A stretch of 64,000 nucleotides of DNA from NCBI RefSeq assembly GCF_000271665.2, contig NZ_CP010978.1:2448501-2512500 (forward strand), in the 5' to 3' direction. A program made the position numbers and the translations under genes. The notes beneath the pieces are model-generated. The model had not been told where the DNA came from, did not search any database, and saw only the letters and a list, made by a program, of their open reading frames with translations. Positions 38,280 to 59,974 of the stretch are shown here, in pieces. This DNA comes from Pelosinus fermentans JBW45 (GTDB lineage: Bacteria; Bacillota; Negativicutes; DSM-13327). How positions within the stretch are numbered: the stretch's first letter is position 1; each line of letters starts with the position of its first letter.

Positions 38280-38546
38280 ATGAATAGCTTTGAATCCGAT
38301 CATGATTGTAAGTGCCACATTGAGATACATCACCAATGTCCAAAATGTCATCATGAGTGTGAGAAAGATTGGCATAAATGCCCTAAGTGTGATCATAACT
38401 TTCATCATGACTGTGATTGGCATGATGAATGTGAGTGTCCTAAATGTCATAACAAATGTCACAATGATTGTCATAAGTGCCCTTGGTGTGATCACGATTT
38501 TCATCATGACTGTAAGTGTCATCAATGTAATAATGACTGCTGTTGA
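38280..38546 (+). CDS. Cys/His-rich repeat protein
   Basis: 88 residues with about 20 Cys and 20 His. Repeating units: CPKCHHECEKDWHKCPKCDH, NFHHDCDWHDECECPKCHNK and CHNDCHKCPWCDHDFHHDC. The CPxC-x-H and HHDC steps occur with near regular spacing, so the chain probably wraps several zinc or other metal ions. RBS GAGGTGG about 7 bases before the ATG; a GCGTCC/GGGCGC terminator follows at 38560-38583. No family is recognised. The shortened relative is at 21499. Confidence 0.65.
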   Translation: MNSFESDHDCKCHIEIHHQCPKCHHECEKDWHKCPKCDHNFHHDCDWHDECECPKCHNKCHNDCHKCPWCDHDFHHDCKCHQCNNDCC

Positions 38547-38597
38547 TATTATCGTTGTCAAGCGTCCTTTTAGGGCGCTTTTCTTATGCAAAAAAAA

Positions 38598-38625
38598 TAA
38601 CCACGTTTTGGTGGAAACGTGGTTG
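38598..38625 (-). terminator. terminator of the 39-residue gene (cassette E)
   Basis: AACCACGTTT and AAACGTGGTT; on the minus strand followed by ATTTTTTTTG. Convergent with the Cys/His-rich gene's terminator. Confidence 0.7.
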
Positions 38626-38660
38626 CAAGAGTATACGGTTTGGCGGGTTAGTTTTAAAAA

Positions 38661-38780
38661 TTAACAATCAGAGGAACAATCGTTATTATCGAAGCAGAAA
38701 AATAATAAGATGATAATTATAATAATAATGCAGCCGGAACCGCCGAAGCCATTACGACCGCCTCCAAAGCCAAAACCCAT
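38661..38780 (-). CDS. 39-residue Gly-rich/poly-Ile membrane peptide (cassette E)
   Basis: MGFGFGGGRNGFGGSGC, the Ile/Leu span, then FFCFDNNDCSSDC. Third intact copy, with a Leu-to-Phe and a Gly-to-Asp change relative to 11241. RBS AAAGGAGG retained. Confidence 0.7.
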   Translation of the reverse strand: MGFGFGGGRNGFGGSGCIIIIIIILLFFCFDNNDCSSDC

Positions 38781-41766: not shown

Positions 41767-43364
41767 CAATGTCATTAAGTTAAGTAGTTAAGAGCAGGTT
41801 AATGTATCAAAAAATGGTGAACGCTATGATAAGTGTTCACCATTTTTATGATTTAAACATACCAAAAGCAGATGACGTTATAAGCCATCTGTACAACATG
41901 TAGATATGAAGAGTTGTTTTAAGAAATTCTATATGCAAACCCGACAGCCTTTTTAATATTTTGATATCTTTCAAATACTCTGCCAGGACGTATTTGAGAC
42001 ATAAATTTTTGCACAATTTTCAAAAGACATCTTTCAGAAATTTTGCTCTTGAAATACTGATAACAAAAATGTATCGCTTTAGCGAAATTGATTCTTTTAT
42101 CTTTTGGATGTTCTACTTGATAAGATATTAAAGCTGCAAAATTGTACATAATTAACTTTGAAAAAATTTCTTGAAGTACAAAATCTTGCTTTTTACTATG
42201 AATGCTGGCTAATCCAACATCATATTTTAATTCTTTGAATGAAGTTTCGATACCCCATCGCATTTTATATAATTCTTTCAAAACTTCAGCAGGAAATTCA
42301 TTCGCAGGTAAATTTGTGAATAACGTTTCATAAGTGGTATTTGAAATTTTAAATCGAACAATTCTAAATTTCAAATCATACATCTTGTTTTCTCTAGGCA
42401 GTAAGTAATCAAACGTTGTATGAGGTTGAATCCAACGATATCTATCAGGATTTTCTTTAATCAATGCTATTGTATCTTTCGTTTTTCTCCGAGTAAGGGT
42501 GATGGTGGTTTCTTTATCGAATTCATCACTATCAGGAGTTTCATATTTAATACCGTAGGATTCTTTTGAACGTATAATATAATTCCAATTCTTTTCTTGA
42601 AAATGAGCAATATTATTAAAAGATTCGTATCCTCTATCAGCTATAACAATAACACTTCCAGTTGCTTCAGATTTTTCAATCATTGATACCAGAGCCTTAT
42701 GTTCATTCATACCTTTTTTACTTTGTATTGAAGCATCAACATAATTATGTTGCATCAAATCATACATAGCATCAAGATGAAGAAGATTATATCCTTTAGT
42801 ATTATCGTCATTTTTGATATGAGAATTATCGTCATTTTTATTTTTAGGTAATCTTATATCAGATCCATCTACAGCAAGAAGACGATATCCTTTAAATAAA
42901 ATCTGCTCGTCACATTGTTTAACCATTTCTCTAAAAATATATTCCATAGCTTTAGATGAAATTTTCTGCCTTTGCTGAACAAAGGCAGAAACAGATGCGG
43001 TATCTTCTGCATAATTGAACCAATCATATATTTCTTTACATAAACTATTTCCACCCATGCCAATCATCATTTTAATGATTGTTTCAAATGATAGTTTTCG
43101 ATTCCTTGTAAAGTCCTTTGATGGATTTTGCAAAAAATCAGATGGATCATCTGATATAGTACTTATTATGTGTGAAAGTATTTCTTTTACTTCGGTTGGT
43201 TTCATATGCGTCCTCCCTCGAATCTTTATATTTCAAGGGCAGAGCTGCAAATTTTCGACTATTTGTCAAGTGTTTTTTTATATGACTAGCAAATATAAAA
43301 ATAGAACGTTTACATCTACTTTTATCGATGTAAGCGTTCTATTTTGCTTAACTTAATGACATTG
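41767..43364 (-). mobile_element. IS4-family insertion sequence, copy 1
   Basis: 1598 bp bounded by the inverted repeat CAATGTCATTAAGTTAAG (41767-41784 and, inverted, 43347-43364). It lies within a palindromic sequence (CTTGCAATAGACAG ... CTGTCTATTGCAAG) that is repeated on both sides and belongs to the left end of the IS3-type element that follows. The transposase matches copy 2 at 54959-56556 over its whole length. Confidence 0.9.
41919..43205 (-). CDS. IS4-family transposase, copy 1
   Basis: 428 residues, identical in protein to the 55118 copy. DDE motifs: GYRLLAVDGSDIRLPK (D1), VIVIADRGYESFNNI (D2), and YKMRWGIETSFKELKYD, which fits the IS4 signature Y-2-R-3-E-6-K exactly. GGGAGG RBS. 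Intact and probably active. Confidence 0.93.
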   Translation of the reverse strand: MKPTEVKEILSHIISTISDDPSDFLQNPSKDFTRNRKLSFETIIKMMIGMGGNSLCKEIYDWFNYAEDTASVSAFVQQRQKISSKAMEYIFREMVKQCDEQILFKGYRLLAVDGSDIRLPKNKNDDNSHIKNDDNTKGYNLLHLDAMYDLMQHNYVDASIQSKKGMNEHKALVSMIEKSEATGSVIVIADRGYESFNNIAHFQEKNWNYIIRSKESYGIKYETPDSDEFDKETTITLTRRKTKDTIALIKENPDRYRWIQPHTTFDYLLPRENKMYDLKFRIVRFKISNTTYETLFTNLPANEFPAEVLKELYKMRWGIETSFKELKYDVGLASIHSKKQDFVLQEIFSKLIMYNFAALISYQVEHPKDKRINFAKAIHFCYQYFKSKISERCLLKIVQKFMSQIRPGRVFERYQNIKKAVGFAYRIS

Positions 43365-44370: not shown

Positions 44371-44958
44371 TTATTCTTTCATAACCATATCGATACACAT
44401 AACCGATGCCAATACAAGTGTACGTATATTGTCATCTTTATCAACCGAGCCATTGATTGAAAGCATGTAGTTGTCGGCAGATGTAAAAAGTTCTTTTCCT
44501 AGTCCCGCCCATTTTTTTGAGACGTTGGCAAGTTCAGTACTGCCTTGGATAAAGCGGAAATCCCAACTTGTCCATTTTCCTTGTAGAGTGCAAAGGATGG
44601 CATCCTCTGGGCTTAGAACTTCAAATTTTCCACCAATGGAAAATAGCTTTTGTTTGAAGCGACCAACTATGCTTCCATTTTCGTCAAAAACATCAACTTT
44701 TGATAAAAATATGGATATGCCGCGCTTCACTGAACAGACTAGTTGGCCGTCCGGAGTACGAATTTCTATATTAAACGGGGTCATCTTCTTGTAATCTGTA
44801 AATCGAAGCAGCTTGGTGAAAAAACCAAGGTTTGGCTCTCTGCATTCGAGAATCTTCTGGTTCGTATGAGGATCAAAAATGTCATAGTTATTTGCTGCTT
44901 TGAACATTCCTACATGTTCTTTTACAAAATATTGATTATTGCGTAGCGATGAATGCAT
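44371..44958 (-). CDS. LURP-one-related / phospholipid scramblase-like protein
   Basis: 195 residues, AAAGGGAGAAG RBS. Tubby-like beta barrel pattern: QYFVKEHVGMFKAANNYDIF, FNIEIRTPDGQLVCSVKRGI, SKVDVFDENGSIVGRFKQKL, GGKFEVLSPEDAILCTLQGK and MLSINGSVDKDDNIRTLVLA. The FxxxEPNLxxxxKLxR region and repeated D-G-x-V hairpins fit the LURP-one/scramblase-related family found in Firmicutes. Cytoplasmic; the role is unknown. RNA-element copy 4 and its terminator lie in the leader, directly upstream, so expression is probably attenuated there. Confidence 0.75.
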   Translation of the reverse strand: MHSSLRNNQYFVKEHVGMFKAANNYDIFDPHTNQKILECREPNLGFFTKLLRFTDYKKMTPFNIEIRTPDGQLVCSVKRGISIFLSKVDVFDENGSIVGRFKQKLFSIGGKFEVLSPEDAILCTLQGKWTSWDFRFIQGSTELANVSKKWAGLGKELFTSADNYMLSINGSVDKDDNIRTLVLASVMCIDMVMKE

Positions 44959-47152: not shown

Positions 47153-48094
47153 ATGAGTAGTAGTGTTTCAAGCTTACAAGAAAAAGAAGTACAACAATTA
47201 ATCTGTGATTTCCCTTGGTTATTAAATTTGGATTATGAAATAATTCCTGAATTAGCTAATAAAGGTTTGGAATATGTACTACCTGGTGGAAATAGGATTG
47301 ATTTACTCTTAAAGGATCGACGGACCAAAAGACCTGTTATCGTAGAATTTAAAAAGGTACCATTTTATCGGGAAAATATAGGACAAATCCTAGAATATAA
47401 AACTAAAGTATTGTGTGAACTCCAATCAGAATCTTCATTATTAAGTGCAGTCTTTGAAAAAAAATTATGTATACCCATACTGATTTTAGTTGTACCAAGT
47501 TGCTCTGCCGAATCACGATTGGCTTGTAATCTTGCTGGAATAGAAATATATGAATATGAAAGTGCAATGCATGAACTAGTTATCCCTGAGAAAAGGCGAA
47601 CGTTAGAAGACTTTATATCAACAATGGCACAAGATGTTATACCTTTTAATGATGAAAGAAACTTGAGAATTAAAGAAATTTACAATGAGATAAAAGCTTA
47701 TCTTATTGCAGAAAATTTATCATATGGTTGGAGTGACTATAAGTCACCTCCAGGTGAGTATTATGATTGCACAAATCAACTTTTTATCAATAAATACCTG
47801 TTTAGAGATAATAGCATCTCCATTGGCATTTATGAAAATATCTATCAAAGTTCAAATAGCAATGATTTAGTAATTGAATTTTACTCAAATAATTTAGACT
47901 CCCTTAAATATTTTCGCGAAGAATTTATAAAATGTGATATGGAAAACATGAATACTAATGAAATCTTTGATTACGGATATAGTCATTGTTGGAGCTTACA
48001 TCTTGATAAGGCAGATTTTATAAGAAATATAAGAAAATCAATTAATCCTTATGTTAAAAATTATATTAGAATAATGAATACTAGTTCGAAATGA
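47153..48094 (+). CDS. PD-(D/E)XK nuclease, NucS-like domain plus C-terminal domain
   Basis: 313 residues. The N-terminal nuclease core shows VQQLICDFPWLLNLDYEIIP, GGNRIDLLLKDRRTKRPVIV (catalytic D), EFKKVPFYRENIGQILEYKT (ExK and the QxxxY helix) and PILILVVPSCSAESRLAC. This is the restriction-like layout of the NucS C-terminal domain and of stand-alone DUF91-type nucleases. The second half (about 170-313: IKEIYNEIKAYLIAENLSYG) is not recognised. AAGGAG RBS. It may cut branched or mismatched DNA; a defence role is possible. Confidence 0.7.
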   Translation: MSSSVSSLQEKEVQQLICDFPWLLNLDYEIIPELANKGLEYVLPGGNRIDLLLKDRRTKRPVIVEFKKVPFYRENIGQILEYKTKVLCELQSESSLLSAVFEKKLCIPILILVVPSCSAESRLACNLAGIEIYEYESAMHELVIPEKRRTLEDFISTMAQDVIPFNDERNLRIKEIYNEIKAYLIAENLSYGWSDYKSPPGEYYDCTNQLFINKYLFRDNSISIGIYENIYQSSNSNDLVIEFYSNNLDSLKYFREEFIKCDMENMNTNEIFDYGYSHCWSLHLDKADFIRNIRKSINPYVKNYIRIMNTSSK

Positions 48095-48507: not shown

Positions 48508-50350
48508 ATGCGGACTAGTGACAATATGAATATTGCCATCTATGTTCGTGTTTGACCAGTCAGTACTGACGATCAAGCCGACAAAGGTATATAGAAAACC
48601 CAGAAGCCTCTATCATGCTCCAGGACGCACAGGAGAAGAAATTTGATACTCTCCTCTTCTATCGTCTTGACCGTTTTGGTCGTAGTGCCAGAACTATCTT
48701 GAATGGTGTACACACTTTAGAGCAATATAGAATAAAGATTAAATCTATGACAGAACCGTTTGATACTAGCGATCCCTCTGGTCGCTTCTTACTCACGATC
48801 CTTGCCGGTGTTGCTGACTTAGAACGCAGCAATATTCTTGATCGACTTTGGCATGGCGCCAATCGAGCAGCACGCAATGGAAAATGGCTTGGTGGTATTT
48901 GTCCATATGGATACCATATTGATAAATAAGGGTTCCTTGCTATTAGTGATACTCCCCTTCCTGGTTTTGATATGTCAGAAATGGATGTAGTAAGATTGGT
49001 TTTTCGACTTACCGTAGAACAAAATATGAGTACATATAAAATCGCTGACTATTTAAATGCTCTAGGCCTTCCTACGAAATATGTAATTGAAGGTCATAAA
49101 GTCCCAAGTGGCAAACGTAAAGTAAAACTCGCAAGTACATGGTTACCAGGACGTGTTAGAAGCATGATCGTGCAGACTACTTATAAAGGGGTTCATGAGT
49201 ACGGTAAACGAACTAGAAAAGTAAGAGAATTAATTGAGCGCGAAGTACCTGCTATTGTAGATGAAGCTACTTGGAATAAAGCTCAACTTGTATTAAAAGA
49301 TAATCAACTAGAAGCTGTACGTTGTGCAAAGTATAAGTACTTACTCCGTTCTCTTGTTAAATGTTCACTATGTGGTTTAAATTTCTCTGGAACAGGTTAT
49401 TCAGACGAAAAAGGACTACGTACTGGTTATTATGTATGTAATGGGAAAACTTCCTATAGAGGCAAGTTTCTAGGAAAATGCAAAGCTAAAAACATACCTA
49501 CAGACTGGTTAGATGAAAAGGTTTGGAAAGATTGTGTTAGCTTTATTAACAATCCTGGACAATTAATATCTGACCTTTCACCAGAAATAGAAAAAAGCAA
49601 TATTTCGATAGAACATGAATTACAGCTGATCAAATCCTCACTCTCTCAAAAGGATACAGAAAAACAATCCATTCTTGATTTATATAGAAAACAACTTGTA
49701 ACCGCTAAAGATGTTGAAGAACAGCTTTCTAAAATCATCAATGAACGAATTGCTCTCGAAGACCGACAGAAAGAATTAAAAAATGCCCTTCTTGCGACTA
49801 ACGATGAAGTTAATCGCAAAAAGGACATTATTATGCTTTTAAAGGATTTAAGAGATAAACGCTCAGACGAAATTACATTTGAAACTAAACGGAGCATTGT
49901 TAAGCAGCTCGTACGTGAAGTAATTGTTTGCACGGAACATATAGAAGGGAAAGATAGACCAGATGTAAATATACACGTAAAGTTTGTTTTCTCCCAGGTT
50001 GTGATGTGCACGGACATGCGTACACATCACAACCTAGATAATACAGTATTTAATGGAAAATTCGATCAGAATATAGAAATGAATTACGTAAGTTGGCCAC
50101 TAAACTTGAACAGCCAATATGGTTTATAGGTTGCTTTGAAAATATGCCTGAAGATACTTTTTTCGAAAAACTGGAGAAGGCTCGTTTCTATCATGGACAT
50201 ACTAAGGTCGAAATGGCTGAAGAGCTTGGAATTCATCAACGTACTATTTTTGACTGGAAAGATAAAGAGCCTGGCCAAGTACTTAAAAAGAAGGCTTTGC
50301 TGTATTGTAAAAATTCTAGATTGAGATTATTTTTCCTTTACGCTATAGTA
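48508..50350 (+). pseudogene. large serine recombinase with C-terminal HTH region, damaged
   Basis: It starts MRTSDNMNIAIYVRV, then a stop, then PVSTDDQADKG, which carries the nucleophilic Ser. A deletion follows. Then come FDTLLFYRLDRFGRSARTIL and SGRFLLTILAGVADLERSNI (resolvase core), another stop at 48928, the recombinase domain (48972 on, TYKGVHEYGKRTRKVRELIE), a zinc ribbon (CSLCGLNFSGTG ... YYVCNGK ... GKCKAKNI) and a coiled coil (KELKNALLATNDEVNRK). The C-terminus matches the HTH region at 59504 but has a deletion and shift at about 50080. It would have integrated or excised an element; now dead. Confidence 0.85.
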
Positions 50351-50395
50351 TAAAGCAAATCCCCTGGTAAGTCCAAACTTATCAGGGGATTTATT

Positions 50396-50854
50396 TTAGC
50401 TACACTCATGCTTATGCGAACAATATTTACAATAGTTTTTATTATTAGCAGCACAAGCTACTACCTCACCTGCTATCACATCCCAATACCGATAATACAA
50501 AGCAATAATTTCGTTTTCCTTCATTAAAGATACTTTTTTCATATTTTTATTTTTGAAATGAATAAAACCATAGTCAGCAACAGACCTTTTTTGTGTTCTT
50601 TCAACCAATAGCTTATATACAGATAGCTGAATAACCTCTGATTCATATACTTGCTGGTTCTCACGGCTTTTGTAATCTCCAACTATCAAAGTACCGTCAC
50701 GACTTTCCCATACGACATCCGGCTTACCGCACAAAGGTATCGGAACATTTATTTGCAAGGATTGCTCTAACATATATGGTGATAACTTGGATTTTCGTCT
50801 TGAGCGCAGCCACCAATAAAGAATAATAACTGCAACTAATATAAAGAATGACAT
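50396..50854 (-). CDS. membrane-anchored Cas4/RecB-like PD-(D/E)XK nuclease (left arm, intact)
   Basis: 152 residues. A single N-terminal membrane span (MSFFILVAVIILYWWL) with a basic stop-transfer (RSRRKSK) is followed by a nuclease core: IPLCGKPDVVW (D), GTLIVGDYKSRENQQV (D-x-K), EVIQLSVYKLLVERTQ (QxxxY helix) and a C-terminal cluster NYCKYCSHKHECS of the type that binds an Fe-S cluster in Cas4/AddB. Family members degrade or trim DNA ends. No cas genes are nearby. It lies just after the CFI-box gene, with the same pairing in the right arm. Confidence 0.75.
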   Translation of the reverse strand: MSFFILVAVIILYWWLRSRRKSKLSPYMLEQSLQINVPIPLCGKPDVVWESRDGTLIVGDYKSRENQQVYESEVIQLSVYKLLVERTQKRSVADYGFIHFKNKNMKKVSLMKENEIIALYYRYWDVIAGEVVACAANNKNYCKYCSHKHECS

Positions 50855-50856
50855 GT

Positions 50857-51238
50857 CTACCTCCAGGATCTAATAAACCAGCGTAATGCTGCACGGATTG
50901 GAATCTTCAATACAGGGTACTTTTCAATTACGATAACTATATATGGCGATATACTATAGTATAATGAAGTAATCATTCGACCAAGGCTGGAAGGTATTAG
51001 ATGCATATCCCTAAATTGACGCAGGATATTCGTTTCTATAGCATCGATACCAAAGACTGCTGTTGCAATAAAGCAGCGTTTATCTTTACCAGAAAGCTGG
51101 CGATTAAATTGTTCGTGCTCTCGGTTACCTCGTTTGATGAATTTTGCAGTAAGTGATGTATCTTTGATGGTGGTCAAGGTAGACTTGACGTTCGCATTTC
51201 CCCATCTTGGCGAGTTCTGTAGCACTGGCTTGGCGCAT
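50857..51238 (-). pseudogene. CFI-box protein, frameshifted (left arm)
   Basis: MRQASATELAKMGKCERQVY, then a frame change near 51143, then NREHEQFNRQLSGKDKRCFI, ATAVFGIDAIETNILRQFRD and SLGRMITSLYYSISPYI. CFIATAVFG with N-LRxFRDxxL is the CFI-box seen at the C-terminus of many Firmicute and Negativicute proteins. GGAGG RBS. Retains the CERQVYLDHH region missing from the right-arm copy. Stop adjacent to the nuclease start (2 bases apart), so the two form an operon. Confidence 0.7.
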
Positions 51239-53326: not shown

Positions 53327-53337
53327 CTTTATCTAAA

Positions 53338-54580
53338 ATATGATATTGGATGAATAGTGTGGTCTTCGGTTTAGATTAAAGCCAGTAAGCTTCCTATCAA
53401 GTAACATGGCACAACGTTGAACACTATAATGCCCGAAACGTTTATGTAGATTATCTACCGTACCTGCCAATATTTCTGCATCCAAGTTGCTATTATCAAA
53501 CAAATCGAGCTGCACATGCCGATCTGCAGTCACTAGATCAGATCCACGCACACCAAGACTTTGGAGTCTCCCATCGGTAATTTGCTTTAAATAATTCCAT
53601 CGCCTTATTAGCAATATTATTAGATAAAAATGTCGGGTTCGACAACTTGCCTTGTCTCTCAAAGGATATAAGGTCATTACCTCTTACGCTGATAGATACA
53701 GTTTTACATTTAAAACCATGCTTACGTGGACGTGCTGCTACACTCTCTGCCAACACATAAATGATTAGTTTGACGTCTTGATTATTGACTAGATCTCTTG
53801 GAGTTGTAGTACTATTGCCAACAGATTTAATTATGCTGCTCTCACCAGTCTGCCGCACCGGTGCCGAATCAAGCCCATTTGCAAAACTATGCAGGGTTTC
53901 TCCCCATATGCCTAGTAGCAAGCGTAGGCTTTTAATATCACGATTAGCAAGATCACCAATGGTATAGATGGCACGATTCTGAAGCTTACGTCTAGTAGAG
54001 CGACCAACATATAATAATTCACCAACTGGCAAAGGCCATACGCATTCACGAAAATCATTTTCCGTTATAATCGTTGTGGCATTTGGCTTTTGCATATCAC
54101 TACCAAGCTTTGCAAAGATTTTATTCCATGATACGCCAACTGATCCAGTGAGCCCTAATTCATCTTGTAAGCGTTGCCTGATTTGATTCGCAATATCTTG
54201 ACCAGTGCCAAATATTTGTTCTGTACCAGTAACGTCGATCCAAACTTCATCAATTCCATAAGGCTCAATTTTATCACTATAATCCGCATATATTTCTCGC
54301 GCTAATCGTGAAAACCGTAAATACTTTTGAAAATCAGCTCGTACCAACACTAAGCCAGGGCACTTTTGTTTGCCTCCCAGATTGCATCTCCGGTTTTAAC
54401 TCCTAGAGCTTTTGCAATATAATTTTTGGCAAGTATGATACCATGACGCGCTTCGGCATCACCGCACACAATGACTGGTTTATTGCGGATCTCTGGATTA
54501 TATAAGCACTCCATACTTGCGTAATAGTTATTCAGATCGACGTGCAAGATCGTGCGACGCATGATAATTTCACCACCCAC
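53338..54580 (-). pseudogene. Y-family (error-prone) DNA polymerase, two frameshifts
   Basis: Pieces: RRTILHVDLNNYYASMECLY (first catalytic Asp) and KPVIVCGDAEARHGIILAKN (54350-54580); after a one-base loss near 54360, YGIDEVWIDVTGTEQIFGTG (acidic pair as ID-E), GSVGVSWNKIFAKLGSDMQK and the little-finger region with HGFKCKTVSISVRGNDL; after a second shift near 53580, LQSLGVRGSDLVTADRHVQL DLF-end. UmuC/DinB type for translesion synthesis. Both breaks are single-base, so decay is recent. GGTGGTG RBS. CAAACATGTTCT upstream is close to, but shorter than, a LexA box. Confidence 0.85.
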
Positions 54581-54958: not shown

Positions 54959-56556
54959 CAATGTCATTAAGTTAAGCAAAATAGAACGCTTACATCGATA
55001 AAAGTAGATGTAAACGTTCTATTTTTATATTTGCTAGTCATATAAAAAAACACTTGACAAATAGTCGAAAATTTGCAGCTCTGCCCTTGAAATATAAAGA
55101 TTCGAGGGAGGACGCATATGAAACCAACCGAAGTAAAAGAAATACTTTCACACATAATAAGTACTATATCAGATGATCCATCTGATTTTTTGCAAAATCC
55201 ATCAAAGGACTTTACAAGGAATCGAAAACTATCATTTGAAACAATCATTAAAATGATGATTGGCATGGGTGGAAATAGTTTATGTAAAGAAATATATGAT
55301 TGGTTCAATTATGCAGAAGATACCGCATCTGTTTCTGCCTTTGTTCAGCAAAGGCAGAAAATTTCATCTAAAGCTATGGAATATATTTTTAGAGAAATGG
55401 TTAAACAATGTGACGAGCAGATTTTATTTAAAGGATATCGTCTTCTTGCTGTAGATGGATCTGATATAAGATTACCTAAAAATAAAAATGACGATAATTC
55501 TCATATCAAAAATGACGATAATACTAAAGGATATAATCTTCTTCATCTTGATGCTATGTATGATTTGATGCAACATAATTATGTTGATGCTTCAATACAA
55601 AGTAAAAAAGGTATGAATGAACATAAGGCTCTGGTATCAATGATTGAAAAATCTGAAGCAACTGGAAGTGTTATTGTTATAGCTGATAGAGGATACGAAT
55701 CTTTTAATAATATTGCTCATTTTCAAGAAAAGAATTGGAATTATATTATACGTTCAAAAGAATCCTACGGTATTAAATATGAAACTCCTGATAGTGATGA
55801 ATTCGATAAAGAAACCACCATCACCCTTACTCGGAGAAAAACGAAAGATACAATAGCATTGATTAAAGAAAATCCTGATAGATATCGTTGGATTCAACCT
55901 CATACAACGTTTGATTACTTACTGCCTAGAGAAAACAAGATGTATGATTTGAAATTTAGAATTGTTCGATTTAAAATTTCAAATACCACTTATGAAACGT
56001 TATTCACAAATTTACCTGCGAATGAATTTCCTGCTGAAGTTTTGAAAGAATTATATAAAATGCGATGGGGTATCGAAACTTCATTCAAAGAATTAAAATA
56101 TGATGTTGGATTAGCCAGCATTCATAGTAAAAAGCAAGATTTTGTACTTCAAGAAATTTTTTCAAAGTTAATTATGTACAATTTTGCAGCTTTAATATCT
56201 TATCAAGTAGAACATCCAAAAGATAAAAGAATCAATTTCGCTAAAGCGATACATTTTTGTTATCAGTATTTCAAGAGCAAAATTTCTGAAAGATGTCTTT
56301 TGAAAATTGTGCAAAAATTTATGTCTCAAATACGTCCTGGCAGAGTATTTGAAAGATATCAAAATATTAAAAAGGCTGTCGGGTTTGCATATAGAATTTC
56401 TTAAAACAACTCTTCATATCTACATGTTGTACAGATGGCTTATAACGTCATCTGCTTTTGGTATGTTTAAATCATAAAAATGGTGAACACTTATCATAGC
56501 GTTCACCATTTTTTGATACATTAACCTGCTCTTAACTACTTAACTTAATGACATTG
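54959..56556 (+). mobile_element. IS4-family insertion sequence, copy 2 (centre of the inverted duplication)
   Basis: 1598 bp, the same length as copy 1, with the same CAATGTCATTAAGTTAAG ends. Outside these, GATATGCTCCCCTTGCAAT stands on the left (54940-54958) and its exact complement on the right (56557-56575), giving a 37-bp terminal inverted repeat. No direct target duplication is visible; the flanks are inverted. Confidence 0.9.
55118..56404 (+). CDS. IS4-family transposase, copy 2
   Basis: 428 residues, identical to the 41919 protein, motifs as there. Its identity to copy 1, next to arms that have diverged by about 10%, shows that the IS moved well after the island was duplicated. Confidence 0.93.
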   Translation: MKPTEVKEILSHIISTISDDPSDFLQNPSKDFTRNRKLSFETIIKMMIGMGGNSLCKEIYDWFNYAEDTASVSAFVQQRQKISSKAMEYIFREMVKQCDEQILFKGYRLLAVDGSDIRLPKNKNDDNSHIKNDDNTKGYNLLHLDAMYDLMQHNYVDASIQSKKGMNEHKALVSMIEKSEATGSVIVIADRGYESFNNIAHFQEKNWNYIIRSKESYGIKYETPDSDEFDKETTITLTRRKTKDTIALIKENPDRYRWIQPHTTFDYLLPRENKMYDLKFRIVRFKISNTTYETLFTNLPANEFPAEVLKELYKMRWGIETSFKELKYDVGLASIHSKKQDFVLQEIFSKLIMYNFAALISYQVEHPKDKRINFAKAIHFCYQYFKSKISERCLLKIVQKFMSQIRPGRVFERYQNIKKAVGFAYRIS

Positions 56557-57342: not shown

Positions 57343-57504
57343 TGCTGACTTTGATTTTGGTTTTCTAGGAGATTTCTTCTTGGCTTCAGTTTTCTTTATG
57401 GCTGCCATGCTTGCCTCTAGTGCTGACATTAGGTCTGCAAAATATGGTGATGTGTCGACAGGTGTTGCAACAGTCATTTCGTTTTCTGCCTTAGTATTGA
57501 TCAT
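57340..57504 (-). CDS. Ku C-terminal basic tail as a separate overlapping frame (right arm)
   Basis: 54 residues: MINTKAENEMTVATPVDTSP, YFADLMSALEASMAAIKKTE, AKKKSPRKPKSKSA. Its ATG overlaps the Ku stop (ATGA). Open reading, basic end and length are kept in both arms although the DNA has diverged. Confidence 0.55.
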   Translation of the reverse strand: MINTKAENEMTVATPVDTSPYFADLMSALEASMAAIKKTEAKKKSPRKPKSKSA

Positions 57505-58157
57505 TGCATAACTTGCTTGTGATACTCATTCGTATATTTTTCTGGTTCAAACTTAGTGATCAAAGAATTAATAAGTGTCTTAGCCATATTCATTTCTTTG
57601 TCTGATAGTTCTACGTTGGATGGTAAATCATTTTCGATCTCTTTTGTTTGTACAATTTCATCCGCGAAAAGCATTGTCGATAGAGTAATAACGTTATCCG
57701 TAGGACGTATTGCTGCAAGATATTCTTTATTGCGTAAAACAAATTTAGCAATACCGACAACATTTGCTTCAGTCATACCTTGAAGTAATAACGCATAAGC
57801 TTTGCCTGCTCCTTGGTCGGGCACAAGATAGTAAGAGCTATCATAATAGCGGTTGTCGATTTCATCTAATTTAACAAAATCGCTAATTTCTATGATTCTG
57901 CTTGCTTTAGGGCTGATTGCCTCTAAATCAGAATCTGAGATAATTACATAGCGGTCTTCCGATAGTTTATAGCCTTTTACGATTTCAGATGCTGGCACTT
58001 CTGCACCGTCCGAAGCCACTTTTTTATATTGTATTCTGCTAAAGTCAGACTTTCTTAACTGATTAAAGGAAATTGTCTTGGATCGGGTAGCCTTAGTGAG
58101 CGATACGGGCACGTTTACAAGGCCAAAAGACAGCATACCTTTCCATACTGGGCGCAT
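57501..58157 (-). CDS. ku: Ku DNA end-binding protein, core domain (right arm, intact)
   Basis: 218 residues. Bacterial Ku rings thread onto double-strand break ends and recruit LigD for non-homologous end joining. MRPVWKGMLSFGLVNVPVSL is the classical Ku start, then FNQLRKSDFSRIQYKKV, GYKLSEDRYVIISDSDLEAI, DNRYYDSSYYLVPDQGAGKA and RNKEYLAAIRPTDNVITLST, MFADEIV. It ends at EYHKQVMQ, about 50 residues short of usual Ku; the basic tail follows in an overlapping frame. AAAGGGTGAT RBS. No ligD is in the window. Confidence 0.9.
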   Translation of the reverse strand: MRPVWKGMLSFGLVNVPVSLTKATRSKTISFNQLRKSDFSRIQYKKVASDGAEVPASEIVKGYKLSEDRYVIISDSDLEAISPKASRIIEISDFVKLDEIDNRYYDSSYYLVPDQGAGKAYALLLQGMTEANVVGIAKFVLRNKEYLAAIRPTDNVITLSTMLFADEIVQTKEIENDLPSNVELSDKEMNMAKTLINSLITKFEPEKYTNEYHKQVMQ

Positions 58158-58665: not shown

Positions 58666-58974
58666 ATGCGTCAAACCAGTGCTACAGAACTCGCCAAGAT
58701 GGGGAAACAAGAGCACGAACAATTTAATCGCCAGCTTTCTGGTAAAGATAAACGCTGCTTTATTGCAACAGCAGTCTTTGGTATCGATGCGATAGAAACG
58801 AATATCCTGCGTCAATTTAGGGATAATCATCTAATACCTTACACCCTTGGGCGAATGTTTACTTCATTATACTATAGTATATCGCCATATATAGTTATCG
58901 TAATTGATAAGTATCCTGTATTGATGATTCCGATCCGTGCAGCATTACGCTGGTTTATTAGATCCTGGAGGTAG
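58666..58974 (+). CDS. CFI-box protein (right arm, intact)
   Basis: 102 residues: MRQTSATELAKMGKQEHEQF, NRQLSGKDKRCFIATAVFGI, DAIETNILRQFRDNHLIPYT and LGRMFTSLYYSISPYIVIVI with a basic amphipathic end. RBS GGAGG; promoter TTTACA and TATAAT at about 58608-58637. Compared with the left arm it has lost about 30 residues after GK, in frame. Directly followed (2 bases) by the nuclease gene. The CFI-box role is unknown; it often ends membrane-associated Firmicute proteins. Confidence 0.75.
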   Translation: MRQTSATELAKMGKQEHEQFNRQLSGKDKRCFIATAVFGIDAIETNILRQFRDNHLIPYTLGRMFTSLYYSISPYIVIVIDKYPVLMIPIRAALRWFIRSWR

Positions 58975-58976
58975 AC

Positions 58977-59432
58977 ATGTCATTCCTTATATTAGTTGCA
59001 GTTATTATACTTTATTGGTGGTTGCGCTCAAGACGAAAACCCAAGTTATCACCATATATGTTAGAGGAATGTTGAAAATAAATAATCCGATACCTTTGTG
59101 TGGTAAGCCGGATGTAGTATGGAAAACTCGTGACGGTACTTTGATAGTTGGAGATTACAAAAGCCGTGAGAATCAACAAGTATATGAATCTGAGGTTATT
59201 CAGCTATCTGTATATAAGCTATTGGTTGAAAGAACACAAAAAAGGTCTGTTGCTGACTATGGTTTTATTCATTTCAAAATAAAAATATGAAAAAAGTATC
59301 TTTAATGAAGGAAAACGAAATTATTGCTTTGTATTATCGGTATTGGGATGTGAAGCAGGTGAGGTAGTAGCTTGTGCTGCTAATAATAAAAACTATTGTA
59401 AAAATTGTTCGCACAAGCATGAGTGTAGCTAA
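58977..59432 (+). pseudogene. Cas4/RecB-like nuclease, damaged (right arm)
   Basis: MSFLILVAVIILYWWLRSRR, KPKLSPYMLEEC then stop. It resumes with NPIPLCGKPDVVW, GDYKSRENQQVYESEVIQLS and HFKIKI-stop; the end NYCKNCSHKHECS is in another frame. One stop and at least two frameshifts relative to the left-arm gene. Start codon and RBS (CTGGAGG) intact. Confidence 0.8.
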
Positions 59433-59503
59433 AATAAATCCCCTGATAAGTTTGGACTTACCAGGGGATTTGCTTTATACTATAGCGTAAAGGAAAAATA
59501 ATC

Positions 59504-59974
59504 TCAATCTAGAATTTTACAATACAGCAAAGCCTTCTTTTTAAGTACTTGGCCAGGCTCTTTATCTTTCCAATCAAAAATAGTACGTTGATGAATTCCA
59601 AGCTCTTCAGCCATTTCGACCTTAGTATGTCCATGATAGCAACGAGCCTTCTCCAGTTTTTCGAAAAAAGTATCTTCAGGCATATTTTCAAAGCAACCTA
59701 TAAACCATATTGGCTGTTCAAGTTCAGTGGCCAACTTGCGTAACGTTTTCATCTCTGCCGTGCCGGTAGTTTTTCCTTCTAGCTGACTTAGATGAGCTGC
59801 AGCAATCTCAACCTTCGCAGCAAGAGTCTTGATTAGCCAACCTTTTTGTATTCGTGCCCATCTAATACGCTTATTGGAGGTGTTACCAATTGTCATTTCT
59901 ATATTCTGATCGAATTTTCCATTAAATACTGTATTATCTAGGTTGTGATGTGTACGCATGTCTGTGTAGATCAT
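59504..59974 (-). pseudogene. C-terminal HTH region of the serine recombinase (right arm)
   Basis: THHNLDNTVFNGKFDQNIEM is the recombinase end shared with 50030. Then IRWARIQKGWLIKTLAAKVE and AAAHLSQLEGKTTGTAEMKT (first HTH, XRE type), EQPIWFIGCFENMPEDTFFE, and a second HTH (HTKVEMAEELGIHQRTIFDW). The catalytic half is absent and the frame opens without a start signal, although an internal start could give a small double-HTH regulator. Confidence 0.65.

Follow-up and report, generated by a model that had tools for sequence, protein, structure and literature searches.

The two adjacent genes on the minus strand at 50396-51238 of the window, by which we mean the whole 64,000-nucleotide stretch of Pelosinus fermentans JBW45 analyzed here (contig NZ_CP010978.1, positions 2,448,501 to 2,512,500), most probably represent a single Cas4/Dna2/RecB-family PD-(D/E)XK nuclease that is encoded in two pieces, a reading to which we assign a probability of roughly 0.85. 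We favor it because the motifs and profile coverage of the two proteins are complementary, the two genes occur together and are under purifying selection, their divergence is correlated, and membrane elements lie at the split.

In the window, an open reading frame (ORF) with a CFI-box (50857-51225, minus strand) is followed, after a 2-base gap, by a nuclease ORF (50396-50854, minus strand), which confirms the two-gene unit of the original prediction. The downstream ORF, hereafter the C-half, is open and intact. It begins with a hydrophobic, predicted transmembrane span and continues with the Cas4-family PD-(D/E)XK motifs GKPD, DYK, QLSVY and CxxC(x5)C, the last of these within the C-terminal CKYCSHKHEC. 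The protein matches Pfam PDDEXK_1 (PF12705; 3e-10, profile positions 100-246 of 247) and Cas_Cas4 (PF01930; 8e-6, positions 53-158 of 160), both above cut-off, so that its description as a membrane-anchored Cas4-like nuclease stands. Against TIGR00372, the equivalog model of CRISPR-associated Cas4, it reaches 37.1 bits for a cut-off of 65. A profile search of the genome with the Cas4 family (PF01930) gave no match beyond this locus.

The upstream gene is different from what the window suggests at first sight. The CFI-box is indeed present in its ORF (CFI_box_CTERM, NF041770; 75.2 bits for a cut-off of 40), but the initial part of this ORF is an out-of-frame translation. The true start is the ATG at 51238, which is preceded by a GGAGG site and opens an in-frame remnant (51125..51238, minus strand; MRQASATELAKMGKCERQVYLDHH...) that includes the first predicted Fe-S cysteine and aligns with the beginning of the intact gene in four Pelosinus relatives. 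DNA alignment against these relatives (L006-L009) places a 5-nt deletion between 51165 and 51164: the first 24 codons are left in frame, and the frameshift leads to a stop after 37 codons, where the remnant ends at 51125. The 50857..51225 ORF starts with out-of-frame codons and enters the true frame after the deletion, where it carries a histidine motif (G..EHE.F), the CFI-box and a basic C-terminus. The "CFI-box protein" of the window is thus the frameshifted remnant of a gene that we call the N-half, and the frameshift made its conserved N-terminus invisible to a first reading of the window.

A second pair lies inverted at 58666-59432 (plus strand) with the gene order of the first. Its N-half (58666..58974) has lost the cysteine segment through a 78-nt in-frame deletion near 58708, and its C-half (58977..59432) is broken by three 1-nt deletions; accordingly, both copies in the JBW45 window are decayed. 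The original prediction pointed to the same gene order in two arms, and this order does recur. However, self-comparison of the window shows that the arms (50084..51129, minus strand, and 58702-59743) are 96% identical in DNA and form one recent segmental inverted duplication, so their shared order is no independent witness of co-conservation. We therefore rejected the two arms as an argument for co-conservation.

The arms belong to a large decayed inverted duplication centered at about 55 kb, with the paired segments 50084-51325/58580-59743, 52360-53289/57339-58275 and 54568-54976/56539-57069. It includes two Ku gene copies, one near each arm: that at 57501-58157 is open but shorter than Ku elsewhere, and the other is broken. 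A linkage of Ku with the pair was considered and rejected, as Ku does not adjoin the pair in relatives. The surrounding DNA also holds an IS-like element in two identical inverted 1598-bp copies (41767-43364 and 54959-56556) with a 428-residue transposase ORF; an apparent large serine recombinase spread over two ORFs of 104 and 385 residues and probably broken (48615-50129); and the fragments, in two or three ORFs, of an apparent Y-family DNA polymerase (53333-54580). Other genes of the window encode a protein that weakly matches the C-terminal nuclease domain of Shedu SduA (47153-48094; Pfam E 1e-4, below cut-off), a bacterial scramblase/LURP-like protein (44371-44958; PF03803, E 7.5e-14) and, in a further ORF, Cys/His-rich repeats of the form CPKCHxxC...HDC (38290-38664).

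The four relatives, which include Pelosinus propionicus, show what the intact N-half looks like: M(R)Q.SATELAKMGKCERQVYLD..GEDTSLTA.[YF]I..GN.EHE.FN, followed by the CFI-box. In relatives, KCERQ with the first Fe-S cysteine and G..EHE.F with the motif histidine are found in the initial part of the upstream gene, and the downstream gene provides the remainder: the catalytic D, (D/E)xK, QxxxY and CxxC(x5)C. Profile coverage is complementary in the same way. N-halves match Dna2 at 56-113 (3e-4), PDDEXK_1 at 2-88 (0.017) and Exo5 at 9-59 (0.0015), all below the gathering cut-offs, and C-halves match PDDEXK_1 at 100-247 and Cas_Cas4 at 52-158; when the two halves of one relative are joined, PDDEXK_1 is covered from 2 to 246 in a single stretch. 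The 16 N-halves compared share the invariant residues C, G, G and H, and GxxD and (D/E)xK are conserved in the 22 C-halves compared. Most pairs have one plus three cysteines; IncC-type C-halves retain a part only of the C-terminal cysteine cluster, so that an Fe-S cluster may not be universal. At every intact locus examined, the Cas4 motifs are spread over two ORFs and never occur in one polypeptide.

Profile-profile comparison with single-chain Cas4 points in the same direction. C-halves align over columns 74-198 with HHalign probabilities of 97.6-98.8%. The main group of N-halves aligns over columns 10-55, its Cys and His both falling on their Cas4 counterparts, with a probability of 11.8%, which is not decisive, and a second group reaches 69% over the cysteine segment only; with 20 column shuffles per group as a control, the probability was at most 1.1%. 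Low N-half scores would be expected for a segment of about 50 residues. Neither the N-half nor the C-half profiles found a convincing match among PDB sequences, the best for the C-half being Exonuclease V (E 0.25). We also obtained an AlphaFold model of one pair by reading the in-frame stop of locus L029 as Gly (5 sequences; mean pLDDT 52.6, pTM 0.43). Its best Foldseek matches in the PDB are Cas4, the Argonaute-associated Cas4 protein ACE1, Dna2 and AdnAB (E 0.005 to 0.13), and VIA-align gives Z 6.8 to Cas4 8d3l_J over 91 residues of the C-half only, the N-half region being matched by no Cas4 structure. This low-confidence model supports the fold of the C-half and speaks neither for nor against docking of the N-half.

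The original prediction treated the CFI-box protein as a separate partner of the nuclease. In a rival reading close to this view, the upstream protein would be a membrane adaptor or regulator with a fold of its own, and the C-half a complete minimal Cas4-like nuclease. The C-half alone does exceed the Pfam cut-offs for PDDEXK_1 and Cas_Cas4, the CFI-box gives its partner an unrelated look, and Sporomusa acidovorans (L030) has an open C-half (L030:5998-6456) from which the N-half has been deleted. Yet what is conserved in the partner is the very segment that C-halves lack when compared with Cas4, its Cys and His aligned with those of Cas4, and the CFI-box is dispensable whereas the Cys/His segment is not. 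We consequently regard a separate adaptor as improbable; the conserved element of the partner gene appears to be the N-terminal half of the nuclease itself.

A neighborhood survey makes this distinction clear. The original prediction named nuclease homologues that routinely lack the CFI-box partner as the observation that would refute it, and this is what we see: among the 6 negativicute genera with the pair, 4 have N-halves that carry no CFI-box and end in an amphipathic or hydrophobic helix, and the CFI-box is likewise missing from the N-halves of a second Bacillota class, IncC plasmids and Pseudoalteromonas plasmids, which end in a transmembrane helix. These homologues still keep the N-terminal half of the nuclease. 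Co-conservation of the gene pair is thus far wider than the window showed, but the CFI-box is not its conserved part; it is an optional module. Its replacement by a transmembrane or amphipathic helix suggests that it acts as a membrane element. On the other side of the split, a transmembrane span is present in 28 of 29 C-halves, mostly with its positively charged side toward the nuclease; from this pattern, both soluble parts are predicted to be cytoplasmic. At two loci from two genera (L011:1468-1476 and L014:1483-1488), the halves lie in the same frame and are split by one stop plus one or two codons, an arrangement that may reflect the origin of the fission. We found no natural fusion of the halves into a single chain with such a hairpin.

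Among 380 Negativicutes genomes, an intact adjacent pair is present in 10, from 6 genera. The other cases are an N-half cut by a contig end, the C-half of Sporomusa acidovorans without its N-half, an N-half remnant alone in a genome with the genus code of Sporomusa acidovorans (G312), and the broken copies of the window genome. In the second Bacillota class, the C-half is found in 21 of 37 genomes, and among the 19 loci that were read, the adjacent N-half is intact in 17 and frameshifted in 2, most intact pairs overlapping by 4 nt. Apart from this, two samples of 398 genomes from the whole phylum gave single-chain Cas4, often beside cas2, and helicase-fused nucleases.

The pair is also found on conjugative plasmids of Proteobacteria. 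Adjacent halves, usually with a CFI-box, are carried by plasmids of Acidovorax, Burkholderia, Denitratisoma, Rhodanobacter, Methylophaga, Aeromonas and Piscinibacter. One gene separates the halves on Xanthomonas and some Rhodanobacter plasmids, and they are divergently transcribed neighbors on a Pseudomonas aeruginosa plasmid. On IncC-type plasmids, the N-half immediately precedes repA, and about 5 kb separate it from the C-half. For instance, two uncharacterized backbone genes of the IncC plasmid L080 are homologues of the N-half (L080:520-807, adjoining repA and with a C-terminal transmembrane helix) and of the C-half (L080:5902-6423, short of part of the cysteine cluster); an early idea that IncC had lost the N-half was wrong. 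In total, 1092 plasmid records match the N-half and 1118 the C-half, nearly all of IncC type; these counts were taken for each half separately, and counts by organism agree closely.

This distribution bears on whether the pair is anything more than decaying debris of a CRISPR Cas4, functionless everywhere. Both window copies are broken, Sporomusa acidovorans has lost its N-half, and 2 of the 19 loci of the second class carry a frameshifted one. Against this, separately placed halves are conserved on more than 1,000 plasmid records, and both halves are under purifying selection: between Pelosinus relatives, dN/dS is 0.07-0.23 for the N-half and 0.08-0.22 for the C-half, comparisons that include the window C-half give 0.11-0.28, and values in the second Bacillota class go down to 0.04 where dS is estimable, dS being near saturation there. 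We consider general loss of function very improbable.

The divergence of the two halves is correlated (r=0.91 for 29 pairs; 0.79 for plasmids alone, Mantel p 0.0005). Since any co-inherited pair would show a correlation, this supports joint inheritance rather than contact. In a tree with single-chain Cas4, of which one group, also used as references for HHalign, includes several members that adjoin cas2, all split C-halves fall on one side of a branch with support 68/83; a single origin of the split is weakly supported.

Based on the above data, we propose that the upstream protein contributes the motif histidine together with the first Fe-S cysteine, and that it terminates in a membrane element, which may be a CFI-box, an amphipathic helix or a transmembrane helix. 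The downstream protein would start with its transmembrane helix and then provide the catalytic Asp, (D/E)xK, QxxxY and the last three cysteines. According to this model, the halves would come together on the inner side of the cytoplasmic membrane and form one active site and one four-Cys Fe-S cluster. The arrangement resembles a Cas4 that acquired a membrane hairpin after its His helix and before its GxxD strand, with the outer loop of the hairpin later opened by gene fission. Such an anchored enzyme would probably cut or trim DNA that enters or leaves the cell. We infer the physical assembly, the shared cluster, the nuclease activity and the biological role. A more speculative extension, which we consider rather unlikely as a whole, is that of a two-protein nuclease whose site and cluster are completed only once the two membrane proteins come together. 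Assembly of the cluster at the membrane would then be a switch, and conjugative plasmids, IncC resistance plasmids among them, as well as some anaerobes would use the enzyme to act on DNA during its passage across the membrane.

Action at the membrane on incoming DNA, as originally suggested, is plausible, and two roles come into consideration. The pair could be a plasmid-side factor for transfer or establishment, through strand processing near oriT/repA or exclusion of competing DNA, with chromosomal copies being secondary. Pairs on conjugative plasmids are associated with several relaxase types and have mobI, repA, S49 peptidase or tra genes as neighbors, and a Cas4-like nuclease limits the transfer or maintenance of RSF1010 in Synechococcus (PMC10653904). 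We favor a role on DNA entering or leaving the cell from this plasmid context and precedent, but hold the specific plasmid function to be tentative: the Negativicutes pairs lie on chromosomes, away from transfer genes and without constant neighbors, and a published TraDIS screen for IncC exclusion was pursued to a different gene (PMC11493245). It is equally conceivable, again short of probable, that the pair is a host-side membrane nuclease for repair or for defense against incoming phage or plasmid DNA, which plasmids carry as a defense gene. The patchy distribution in the class (12 of 380 genomes) would fit such a role, as would the closest defense-library matches, Cas4 and DruK. However, no link to known defense genes was seen around intact copies. 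A virus link was rejected, with no match in a phage collection (one C-half query) or in viral_contigs (five queries).

The likeness of the pair to Cas4, CRISPR-associated or solo (PF01930, TIGR00372), lies in the PD-(D/E)XK core motifs, the His and one Cys before the core, the three C-terminal cysteines and the predicted core structure of the C-half. Cas4 is one polypeptide, however, and the pair is two, with membrane elements at the break; unlike CRISPR Cas4, it is not beside cas1 or cas2 in the loci examined, and no cas genes occur in the annotated plasmid neighborhoods. The nuclease domains of Dna2, Exo5, AdnAB and RecB have a core fold similar to that of the C-half, and N-halves align to the Cys/His segment of the Dna2 and Exo5 profiles, but these enzymes are single chains, many of them helicase-fused. 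Cas4-family genes on Burkholderiales conjugative plasmids have been noted before as an MGE-Cas4 clade (Hudaiberdiev 2017; PMC5704561), which probably includes the C-halves of the pAOVO01-like plasmids found here; the main text of that study does not contain the word "split" and makes no statement of half-domains or membrane anchoring for these proteins. Our literature search returned no description of a split or membrane-anchored Cas4 and no paper mentioning the CFI-box-CTERM domain; subscription journals were mostly outside its coverage, so that this absence is not proof.

In public records, some C-halves are named Dna2/Cas4 domain-containing and some N-halves CFI-box-CTERM, and the halves have so far been annotated as unrelated proteins. 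The split reading would explain CFI-box-CTERM proteins and small Dna2/Cas4-domain or hypothetical plasmid proteins as the halves of one enzyme, including two uncharacterized backbone genes of about 1,100 IncC-type plasmid records. It also gives the CFI-box a possible meaning: the NF041770 domain forms the C-terminus of the window ORF and of many plasmid N-halves and would here be an interchangeable module on half a nuclease. We suggest that it serves in membrane association and that a transmembrane or amphipathic helix can take its place.
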